Origin: Lachnospiraceae bacterium
Lineage (GTDB): Bacteria > Bacillota > Clostridia > Lachnospirales > Lachnospiraceae
Reading direction: 5' to 3'
Length of the DNA stretch: 64,000 nucleotides
Assembly (NCBI GenBank): GCA_017468395.1
Contig: JAFUIR010000021.1
Coordinates: 83,912 to 147,911 of the forward strand
Part shown: piece after piece, positions 8,264-58,133 of the stretch
Position numbering within the stretch: position 1 is the first letter of the stretch
Layout: every line of letters starts with the position of its first letter
Translations under genes and position numbers: made by a program
The notes under the pieces: model-generated
What the model saw: the letters and a program-made list of their open reading frames with translations, nothing else
What the model was told of the DNA's origin: nothing
The model's database searches: none

Positions 8264-8632
8264 TTATAACTCCTCTATCAACTGCTTGGATAACTCTTTG
8301 ATTTGTTCGATTTTGTTAAGGTTTGCCCCTGCTTTTGGAACATTTGATTTTTCCTCTCCAAGTTCACATGCCAACTTGTGAATCTCACCGGCCGTTTTCT
8401 TCGTTTCCTGAAAGCGTTCCAGCAAATGAAGTTTTTCCTCGTACTCCTGTAAAATCCGGTCGCATCTTTTTATCAAATCATGGACACCCTGTCTGCTGAT
8501 GCCTGCCTCCTGCGCTATTTCGCTTAAGGACAAATCATTGTAAACAGCGTCTTCATAAATCTTTCTCTGATGCTCCGTAAGCAGTTCGCCGTAAAAATCA
8601 TACAGCAGTCCCTGTTCAAAAATCTTTTCCAT
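8264..8632 (-). CDS. ylxM: YlxM family DNA-binding protein, putative SRP-associated helix-turn-helix protein
   Basis: The product is 122 residues from the ATG at 8632, which has AAAGGTGG upstream; a more upstream in-frame start gives an unlikely 16-residue extension lying across the promoter. The helix-turn-helix sequence LSLSEIAQEAGISRQGVHDLIKR resembles sigma-70 region 4, as in all YlxM proteins, followed by a helical C-terminus. YlxM is almost always encoded with ffh, is reported to bind SRP in some species, and may regulate it. It is the first gene of its transcript, downstream of a strong promoter. Confidence 0.93.
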   Translation of the reverse strand: MEKIFEQGLLYDFYGELLTEHQRKIYEDAVYNDLSLSEIAQEAGISRQGVHDLIKRCDRILQEYEEKLHLLERFQETKKTAGEIHKLACELGEEKSNVPKAGANLNKIEQIKELSKQLIEEL

Positions 8633-8651
8633 ATCTGTTACCACCTTTAGC

Positions 8652-8680
8652 ATCATACACGAAAAGAAATAAGGTGTCAA
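8652..8680 (-). promoter_or_regulatory. Strong sigma-A type promoter for ylxM-ffh-rpsP-khpA
   Basis: On the minus strand: TTGACA, 17-bp spacer, TATGAT. The -35 hexamer lies in the 3' arm of the terminator hairpin of the upstream yitT gene. Confidence 0.85.
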
Positions 8681-8700
8681 GTATTTTTTCTTGACACCTT
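8671..8700 (-). terminator. Rho-independent terminator of yitT, overlapping the ylxM promoter
   Basis: An 11-bp perfect stem (AAGGTGTCAAG with its complement), 8-base A-rich loop, then ATTTCTTTT on the minus strand. It lies 9 bases after the yitT stop codon. The 3' arm contains the TTGACA -35 box of the next promoter. Confidence 0.8.
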
Positions 8701-55841: not shown

Positions 55842-57176
55842 ATGAAAAATCTGACCTCCGGAAGACCTATCAAATTGATTTTACTGTTTGCAATTCCCCT
55901 TTTTATCGGGCAATTGTTTCAATTATTTTATAGTTTGGTTGACACACGTATTGTAGGCTCTACCCTGGGAGAAACATCCTTGGCCGCAGTCGGCGCCACC
56001 ACTACCTTAAGCGATTTACTGGTCAGTTTGGTAAACGGGACCACCAATGGCTTTGCCATCATTATTGCCACATTTTTTGGTGCCAAGGATGAAACAAACA
56101 TGAAAAAAGCGATTGCCGGCACATCCGTTTTGGCAATCGGTGCCACACTGATAATCAGTGGTGTTACTTTGCTTTTCCTTTCTCCTATCCTTAGACTTTT
56201 AAATATTGAGGCGGAGATTCTTCCCCAATCCAAAGCTTATATCAGCATTATTTTGGCAGGATTGATTGCTTCCACACTATACAACCTGTGTGCGTCCATT
56301 CTCCGTGCCATAGGGGATTCTTTCACACCGCTTTTATTTTTGATTTTGGCTTCTTTTTTAAATATTTTGGGTGATTATGCCTTTATTCTGTTCTTTGATA
56401 TGGGAGTTGCCGGTGCTGCACTTGCCACAGTACTGTCCCAGGCATTTTCCGCTCTTCTTTGCTTCATTTACATGCGAAAAAAATATCCCATGCTTTCCCT
56501 GTCCAAAGAAGATTTTGTCTTTTCCAAAGACATTTACAAAAAACTTCTTCATACAGGTCTTTCCATGGGATTTATGTCTTCCTTTGTAAGTTTAGGTACA
56601 CTGTCGCTCCAGACCAGCATCAACACTTTTGGTACAAATATTATTGTAGCCCATACCGCTGCCCGCAAAATCACCTCAATTTATATGTTGCCCTTCGCCG
56701 TGTGCGGTGTGACTTTGGCAACCTACTGCGGTCAGAACTTAGGAGCAGGTAAATATTCCCGCATCAAAAAGGGAATCCTCGACACAGTGCTTTTAAACTT
56801 CGGTTGGTGCGCCGTGGTAATATTATCCGCCTTCACCATCGCACCATTTTTAGTAAAGATGGTAACTGCCACCGTGAATACGGAAATTATTGAAACTGCT
56901 ACGTTATATCTGAAAATCAACACTGCCTTTTATTTAGTTCCGGCTGTCATTTGTCTGTTTAGAAACAGTATGCAGGGCTTTGGTGATAATACTACCCCGG
57001 TTATTTCCAGTTCCTTAGAGTTAATCGGTAAAGTAGCAATTGCCTTCTTCCTTGCACCGGCCATCGGCTACATGGGCATTATCGTTTCAGAGCCTATCGT
57101 ATGGTGCATCATGGTCATCCCCTTAATTGTGGGCATGATACGGAATCCCATTTTCAAAATGCCCGACAAAGAATAA
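55842..57176 (+). CDS. MATE family efflux transporter
   Basis: A 444-residue membrane protein with about 12 transmembrane segments in two related halves, typical of cation-coupled multidrug and toxin extruders. Characteristic stretches are GRPIKLILLFAIPLFIGQLFQLFYSLVD and VDTRIVGSTLGETSLAAVGA near the start, and RNSMQGFGDNTTPVISSSLELIGKV in the second half. AAAGGAAG precedes the ATG. It stands alone and is followed by the large inverted-repeat element. Substrate unknown. Confidence 0.93.
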   Translation: MKNLTSGRPIKLILLFAIPLFIGQLFQLFYSLVDTRIVGSTLGETSLAAVGATTTLSDLLVSLVNGTTNGFAIIIATFFGAKDETNMKKAIAGTSVLAIGATLIISGVTLLFLSPILRLLNIEAEILPQSKAYISIILAGLIASTLYNLCASILRAIGDSFTPLLFLILASFLNILGDYAFILFFDMGVAGAALATVLSQAFSALLCFIYMRKKYPMLSLSKEDFVFSKDIYKKLLHTGLSMGFMSSFVSLGTLSLQTSINTFGTNIIVAHTAARKITSIYMLPFAVCGVTLATYCGQNLGAGKYSRIKKGILDTVLLNFGWCAVVILSAFTIAPFLVKMVTATVNTEIIETATLYLKINTAFYLVPAVICLFRNSMQGFGDNTTPVISSSLELIGKVAIAFFLAPAIGYMGIIVSEPIVWCIMVIPLIVGMIRNPIFKMPDKE

Positions 57177-57189
57177 CCCTCTGTATATA

Positions 57190-57436
57190 AAAAGAGACTT
57201 TGATAACATGATAATAACTGAGCGGGTGTAAACATTTTTGCCACAGCCCCTTGAAAAACGTCAGTACTTAGATGGCAAGCGAATGCTTTGCCGCCAAAGG
57301 CTTGCTTGCAAGGATTTTGGTGGCGAAGTATTTGGTTGGCATCTTATGTACTGCTACGTTTTTCACGGAACGAGAGTGTGGCTGTGAAAAAAATTGTTTA
57401 CACCCGCTCTAATATTATCACTTTATATATAAGTCT
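57190..57436. repeat. About 250-bp imperfect inverted-repeat element (MITE-like or structured RNA)
   Basis: The two halves are imperfect reverse complements. Matching blocks, outermost to inner: AAAAAGAGACTT; TGATAATA; AGCGGGTGTAAACA; a T run with CACAGCC; TGAAAAACGT; CAGTAC; AAGATG/TAGATGG. The right arm has extra sequence between CACAGCC and TGAAAAACGT. The centre is near 57313 (CTTGCTTGCAAG). No direct target repeat, transposase or promoter is obvious. Both strands are open across the centre: plus strand ATG at 57272 to TAA at 57412 (46 codons), minus strand a 24-codon frame; I do not call either a gene. It lies between the convergent MATE and ung genes and may also terminate both. I infer a mobile or dispersed element, not proven here. 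Confidence 0.7.
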
Positions 57437-57440
57437 CTTT

Positions 57441-58115
57441 TTAGATATCTTCTATCTGCCAATCTATGGGCTCTAATCCGTTCTCTTTTAAAAATTCATT
57501 GGTTTTGCTGAAATGCTTACATCCAAAGAATCCTCTGTATGCCGACAAAGGACTGGGATGGGGAGCCTCCAAAATCAAATGTTTCGGATTGTTCAGCATG
57601 CTTTTTTTCATCTGCGCAGGTTTCCCCCAAAGCAAATACACAATAGGTCTGTCCTGCTCATTAAGGGCTCGTATCGCTGCATCCGTAAACTTTTCCCAGC
57701 CTTTCCCGTGATGGGAATTGGCCATATGTGCACGCACCGTAAGCACTGTATTAAGCATCAGTACCCCTTGGGATGCCCATTTTACCAAATAACCGTTGTT
57801 TGGAATCTTGCACCCCAAATCATCCCGAAGTTCCTGATATATATTTACCAAAGAAGGGGGGATGTCCACATCAGGCTTTACGGAAAAACATAATCCATGG
57901 GCCTGACCATCATTATGATAAGGGTCTTGTCCGATAATGACCACTTTCACATCCTTTAACGGTGCCAGATGAAAAGCATTAAAAATATCATCTGCCGGCG
58001 GAAAAATTTGTCTGGTATTGTATTCTTCCCTTACAAATTTATATAGTTCTGTATAATAGGGTTTCTTAAATTCGCCGCCAATGGCCTCCAGCCAGTCATT
58101 AGAAATCATTGCCAT
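57441..58115 (-). CDS. ung: Uracil-DNA glycosylase
   Basis: Removes uracil from DNA as the first step of base-excision repair. From the ATG at 58115 it has 224 residues. The catalytic motif is IIGQDPYHNDGQAHGLCFSV with D64, and the second motif is APHPSPLSAYRGFFGCKHF. A TTG four codons upstream is in frame; AGGAAGG lies 13 bases before the chosen ATG, so the start is approximate. It lies 18 bases after hisF and its stop is 4 bases from the inverted-repeat element. Confidence 0.95.
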   Translation of the reverse strand: MAMISNDWLEAIGGEFKKPYYTELYKFVREEYNTRQIFPPADDIFNAFHLAPLKDVKVVIIGQDPYHNDGQAHGLCFSVKPDVDIPPSLVNIYQELRDDLGCKIPNNGYLVKWASQGVLMLNTVLTVRAHMANSHHGKGWEKFTDAAIRALNEQDRPIVYLLWGKPAQMKKSMLNNPKHLILEAPHPSPLSAYRGFFGCKHFSKTNEFLKENGLEPIDWQIEDI

Positions 58116-58133
58116 GTTCTTTACCAAACCTTC

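Follow-up and report, generated by a model that had tools for sequence, protein, structure and literature searches.

An imperfect hairpin between a MATE-family gene and ung is probably one copy of a MITE-like foldback family of Lachnospiraceae

The imperfect hairpin at 57188-57443 of the window (the 64,000-nucleotide stretch of a Lachnospiraceae genome that was analysed) is probably one copy of a non-autonomous, MITE-like foldback family found mainly in Lachnospiraceae. We put the probability of this reading at about 0.72. Evidence that the family is mobile comes from target duplications, from an empty site at locus L273 in a sister genome, from tandem arrays and from copies nested in elements whose ends are IS66/ISBst12-like or of other types. 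The preliminary description of this DNA had offered either a mobile element or a structured RNA. Copy number, covariation and target duplications bear out the first at the level of the family; neither a target duplication nor an empty site was found for the window copy itself. A role of the conserved core as RNA is possible.

The hairpin fills the gap between a convergent gene pair, MATE and ung. Its parts and neighbors are as follows.

55842..57176, + strand: flanking MATE-family efflux gene, named from reading its translation
57188..57443, + strand: whole imperfect hairpin (foldback element), from an inverted-repeat search and folding
57186-57239/57390-57443, 57234-57248/57380-57394, 57249-57261/57356-57368 and 57262-57270/57345-57353: nested arm pairs, from the inverted-repeat search
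57188..57243, + strand: left outer arm, dissimilar to the arms of most other copies
57189..57193, + strand: A-run at the hairpin base (a T-run for an ung-derived transcript)
57244..57384, + strand: conserved folded core, matched by covariance model R1 at 84.1 bits
57250..57271, + strand: left conserved core strand, CTTGAAAAACGTCAGTACTTAG
57272..57342, + strand: inner hairpin, differing in sequence and length among copies
57343..57377, + strand: right conserved core strand, including a CT bulge and a GNRA-type side hairpin
57370..57377, + strand: the side hairpin, AC-GAGA-GT here and GC-GNRA-GC in most copies
57385..57443, + strand: right outer arm, complementary to the left arm, its end overlapping the ung stop codon
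57438..57442, + strand: T-run at the hairpin base, behind MATE
57441..58127, - strand: flanking ung, uracil-DNA glycosylase, named from reading its translation

The nested inverted repeats first reported at 57190..57436 are present and form one continuous hairpin. Folded as RNA, 57180-57445 reaches -132.9 kcal/mol against -60.0 (sd 4.5) for 200 shuffles (z -16.1); the same stretch gives z -16.7 folded as DNA, and its opposite strand z -13.0 as RNA. The ends of this copy are AAAAAGAGACTT/AAGTCTCTTTTT. Open frames had been described on both strands, and such frames do exist, with longest stop-free runs in 57190-57436 of 60 codons on the + strand and 51 on the - strand. They are not a meaningful feature: base shuffles equal the run in 129/1000 cases for the + strand, 307/1000 for the - strand and 42/1000 for both strands, and a coding meaning was dropped on this ground. 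Moreover, the core stretches compared range from 138 to 142 bases among copies and therefore keep no reading frame.

Far from the single, unconserved sequence that would have told against the preliminary description, the element is multi-copy. Searches with blastn found 12 places in its own genome (G000), three of them short (13 rows, among which is the window copy read in reverse), and hits in 27 of 61 genomes of the genus, with a core of ~140 bases common to the copies. To build covariance model R1, 29 cores were drawn from 24 genomes, the own genome contributing four; the set excluded the window copy and omitted L031 (truncated), L039 (at a contig end) and L040. The window gave a sole R1 match, the core listed above, and the own genome gave at least 15 matches, 15 of the 16 scored candidates passing. 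Of 250 Lachnospiraceae genomes sampled, 100 had an R1 match (99 of 249 genera), and some of these carry about 40 copies. Across a phylum-wide sample it matched in 5 of 398 genomes, four of them Lachnospiraceae including the own genome and one a weak match elsewhere (E 3.8e-6).

Among the matches listed from a core pattern scan were Eisenbergiella tayi, Butyrivibrio, Mediterraneibacter and others, as well as MAG contigs labelled Muribaculaceae, Gastranaerophilales, Mogibacterium and Eubacteriaceae. The R1 copies on L115, L151 and L183, contigs labelled Gastranaerophilales and Muribaculaceae, may reflect mis-binning. A GC-rich viral contig (L224) has two R1 copies, at 1706-1805 and 8604-8700, surrounded by open reading frames that look phage-like, apparently structural genes from their translations. 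Among phages and plasmids, blastn returned no match for the L016 copy; the viral contig does hold its two copies. Tandem R1 arrays occur at L251:1338-1914 (164-base period), L258:1141-1587 (180) and L259, which is G169:C21 (187).

Few copies lie within a mechanically called ORF of at least 70 aa: 1/10 in the own genome, 1/27 in G017, 0/14 in G145 and 3/26 in G724. Copies within one genome are kin, and such counts are not independent events. The family is short, non-coding and dispersed in many copies, as MITEs are. Many of the G724 copies (right flanks L407-L428) stop, as judged by eye and without a control, just 5' of the promoter-like sequence of the next gene. In the same genome, a second foldback repeat, which lacks the R1 core (L426:1161-1480), is joined to several R1 copies, with shared stretches of ~500 bases. 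A retro-element with variable 5' truncation was dropped as an account of G724, the longer copies being fusions to this second foldback family.

Compensatory changes, which the preliminary description had linked to either of its readings, were found throughout the core. Both sides changed at 17 of the 22 pairs in the 29 training rows and at 19 of 22 in a larger alignment, A4 (111 matches, 109 distinct rows, from 95 of 100 sources). Standard pairs occupy 94.2% of the pair cells of A4, which was fitted to the model and leans toward its structure; with partners slid, at most 55% of cells are paired and 11 pairs change on both sides. Covariation scores 0.525 in this alignment, where shuffles average 0.164 and slid partners reach no more than 0.137. 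Strongly conserved unpaired positions are the TT ahead of the inner hairpin and the A and CT bulge of the right strand, together with the side hairpin GC-GNRA-GC; conservation is partly by choice here, since 80 of the 100 A4 sources (L104-L183) came from a pattern that fixed GTACCGYTRCG and AGCGRRAGCG, with the partner bases of these motifs and the remaining columns left free.

Half-way states were also counted. Both-side changes exceed them in A4 and in G724 (49 vs 13), and in G017 the half-way states are the more numerous (103 vs 66). On the core strand, A-C half-pairs stand against G-T half-pairs at 73 vs 30 in G017, 25 vs 18 in G145 and 7 vs 6 in G724 (24, 15 and 15 rows kept); the model-fitted alignment is reversed, with G-T at 50 and A-C at 30. 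The half-pairs give no consistent mark of a single RNA strand and fit either arm-to-arm copying or folding of either strand.

These counts bear on the alternative that survives best, a multi-copy family of structured non-coding RNA in which the transcribed core acts as RNA and the covariation reflects RNA folding. The strength of the covariation, the invariant unpaired bases and the GNRA-type tetraloop all speak for it, as do two RNA candidates, TwoAYGGAY and (below cut-off) Clostridiales-1, that lie inside or near similar elements. We nevertheless consider it unlikely: within genomes A-C half-pairs at least equal G-T ones, despite the opposite order in the model-fitted alignment; sister genomes have the core inverted; and there is no promoter-like site in 57100-57520. 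Rfam likewise returned no match above the gathering score in the window, where the only matches had E of at least 0.06 and fell far below family cut-offs, or at any core scanned.

Outside the core, arm sequence varies among copies, and each arm stays complementary to its own partner. For copies of the own genome, the 45 bases beyond the core score a median of 21 (minimum 16) with their own partner, against 4 (maximum 13) with partners taken from other copies and 4 (maximum 12) in shuffles. G145 arms are partly alike across copies (cross median 10, maximum 25, vs an own-arm minimum of 18). There, 9 of 14 cores differ by at most 2 bases from one 88-base sequence, while the arms diverge more and still pair. 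Near-identical cores within differing, self-complementary arms are seen in the sister-genome pair G145/G313.

Target duplications, another mark named at the outset, were found for the family and not for the window copy or the own-genome set. The 28 G017 copies have imperfect flanking direct repeats with a mean score of 6.25, against 4.59 (sd 0.20, maximum 5.29) in 400 rearrangements; two of 30 loci, L061 and L067, were omitted as truncated copies, and the eight best repeats span 10-15 bases. When copies with a short fold or near an end were dropped, z was 5.4 for G017 (27 copies kept), 4.6 for loci found by pattern (101), 2.6 for G145 (14) and 2.2 for family loci (19). For the nine own-genome copies tested z was -0.4, no better than the control, and the window copy has no detectable target duplication.

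Terminal inverted repeats, as in MITEs, are seen in the form of GTAACAGTTCAGC, CAATGTCATT and, in the G017 copies, TAGGTAATTGCG-like ends, so that one core occurs in carriers with differing ends. Exact, script-checked 8-bp repeats flank GTAACAGTTCAGC ends at L149 (CTGTTTTG), L160 (ATGTAGCA), L159 (TTTTTTAC, the far GTAACAGTTCAGC end carrying one difference) and L404 (GATGTGAC). Exact repeats, also script-checked, flank CAATGTCATT ends at L222 (GCCGTGAAT), L104 (GGAATGAAC) and L126 (10 bp); apart from the last, all of these repeats are 8-9 bp long. A matching end repeat is absent at L208 and L190, and L405 fails by one base. In G724, most copies lack inverted ends, and the sequences to their left and right are dissimilar. 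At L159:4709-4930, a CAATGTCATT-ended hairpin sits centrally within a GTAACAGTTCAGC-ended one, and the sequences flanking it mirror each other instead of forming direct repeats.

Twelve G145 loci have a counterpart in the 1.08 Mb of G313 examined, and three of them (L273, L284 and L294) are without the element in G313. These polymorphic loci were compared without an outgroup and do not distinguish gain from loss. At L273, 175 bases including both arms are absent from G313; the blastn pieces overlap by 7 bases, and by eye there is AGAAAATAACACAAG likeness on both sides. The idea that only the core had entered long terminators already in place is ruled out at this locus, where hairpin and arms are jointly absent in the sister. 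At L284 a partial copy lies between exact 11-bp repeats, one of which G313 keeps, but the adjacent sequence differs too and its status as an empty site is unclear. L294 is a degenerate copy with no repeat. For the window copy no empty site was found, MATE adjoining ung at none of 29 other ung loci examined (within 1.5 kb).

The remaining nine shared loci have a whole or partial copy in both genomes. At four of them (L270, L280, L285 and L293) the core is inverted; at L267, L269, L272, L278 and L292 it has the same orientation. The arms are plainly the same in both genomes at L270 and have diverged too at L280. At L267 the flanks differ at 78/1279 bases and both cores equal the reference, and L278 has decayed, with 8/88 differences.

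What moves the family was sought among neighboring genes and among transposases. Among the neighbors of 120 loci, ABC-transporter ATPases (at 11 loci) are the sole recurring gene family, and no partner gene was found. The Y1 transposase PF01797 is absent from 13 of 18 genomes, including the own genome, G313, G096, G017 and the copy-rich G145, G116, G119 and G146; the copy-rich G169 and G110 have it. Y1-transposase mobility is therefore ruled out as a general account, and the own genome and the seven others named as lacking it are without the Y1 transposase that would mark elements driven by REP/RAYT or IS200/IS605. The IS66 transposase PF03050 is present in 5 of 13 genomes, including those of L149, L159 and L160, and absent from the own genome (92.7% complete) and seven others, among them the genome that holds L112 and L190. 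None of 12 IS66 transposase loci has a GTAACAGTTCAGC end at up to one mismatch. The window copy does not belong with IS66/ISBst12, having no GTAA-type ends, no 8-bp repeat and no PF03050 in its genome. IS66 enzymes could account for part of the family at most.

There is a second alternative, namely that the copies are mainly transcription terminators or boundary hairpins, each kept by selection. The window copy suits it, standing in a convergent gap with an A-run and a T-run at its base, as does the start of 7 of the 9 classified own-genome copies within 25 bases past the end of the preceding gene. A terminator pattern scan, which permits loops of 3-8 bases only, reported nothing at the window copy. 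We regard this account as quite unlikely for the family, since convergent placement is limited to 3 of 9 copies in the own genome and to 2 of the 26 classified in G017, five loci (L272, L278, L285, L292 and L293) are decayed or partially deleted in one sister genome, G145 copies such as L267 have an A-run and not a T-run at the 3' base, and the core is elaborated far beyond what a terminator needs.

A bolder reading, quite doubtful as it stands, makes the core itself a mobile module, not a MITE but a parasite of MITEs, which would be recognised by shape as extruded or single-stranded DNA and would spread and be swapped among foldback elements with ends from different transposase families. It predicts near-identical cores in different self-complementary arms as well as core inversion, and both are seen in G145/G313. 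By analogy with integron attC, the hairpin might instead be a site for site-specific recombination as folded single-stranded DNA, with its varying arms, constant bulges and cores that flip at shared loci, but this is very improbable given target duplications that indicate transposase-type insertion, the capacity of template switching to invert spacers too, and the lack of a recombinase family recurring beside copies.

For the MITE-like family, we infer the following mechanism. Copies would be moved by transposases supplied in trans, in some carriers perhaps by an IS66/ISBst12-type enzyme. The core may be retained because something recognises the shape into which it folds, or because it makes insertions tolerable. 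Arm complementarity and core flips would arise largely from template switching between the arms during replication. Such switching is reported to homogenise the arms and invert the spacers of inverted repeats in yeast (PMC8604942) and to create and maintain RNA hairpins (PMC8794818); flips and paired arms therefore need no new enzyme. Survival of the bulges is not explained by template switching, and selection or exchange between copies would have to act. The window hairpin would then be an old copy directly past the MATE stop codon, and its A-run/T-run base may terminate transcription arriving from either gene, MATE or ung.

These results matter in several ways. A family carried by two fifths of the sampled Lachnospiraceae genomes (the 100 of 250 above) had no Rfam match and no description in the mainly open-access literature searched on Lachnospiraceae repeats, MITEs, palindromes and RNA candidates. 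Strong covariation is often read as proof of a functional RNA, and it can arise in mobile hairpins, whose arms may copy each other. TwoAYGGAY, a catalogued RNA candidate, occurs in elements of this type, and mobile DNA hairpins may therefore be present among the structured RNAs already catalogued. With core inversions recurring between sister genomes, gut bacteria would also be a convenient place to observe template switching.

Among known systems, REP sequences with Y1 (RAYT) transposases are many-copy intergenic palindromes, occasionally clustered. R1 elements resemble them in being many, intergenic, palindromic and at times clustered, and unlike them are far larger. Integron attC sites vary in sequence while their fold and unpaired bases are conserved. 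The R1 core may be likened to them in these respects, and differs in being dispersed and associated with target duplications. TwoAYGGAY and Clostridiales-1 both appear in an RNA candidate table (PMC2864571). TwoAYGGAY (RF01731) lies within L112:1099-1421 (87.7 bits) and L190:1631-1952 (79.9 bits), elements of 323 and 322 bases with GTAACAGTTCAGC-like ends, of which only L112 has an exact 8-bp flank repeat; the RF01731 model fails to match R1 cores at the scanned loci. A sub-cut-off match to Clostridiales-1 (40.9 of 48 bits) lies ~230 bases from an R1 core at L134:3709-3851 and L229:1127-1269, which may be the same place.

ISDge4 (ISBst12 group, IS66) is reported with ends GTAACTGCTCAGCA / GTGACTACTCAGCA and an 8-bp repeat (PMC12898284), and two IS66 elements are tabled with 8-bp repeats in PMC3281130. 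The GTAACAGTTCAGC ends and exact 8-bp repeats of L149, L159, L160 and L404 resemble those described for ISDge4, a likeness to IS66/ISBst12 that holds for part of the family only and does not extend to the window copy. The Correia element and ERIC are described in PMC10969869 as short and non-coding, with many intergenic copies, stem-loops and fading direct repeats, and inversion is reported there for Correia too. Compared with these descriptions, the R1 family is unlike Correia and ERIC in that its core is common to elements with different ends and no source IS was found in the transposase loci and neighborhoods examined, and it is like these bacterial MITEs in consisting of short, non-coding, mostly intergenic stem-loops, a part of which have direct repeats.
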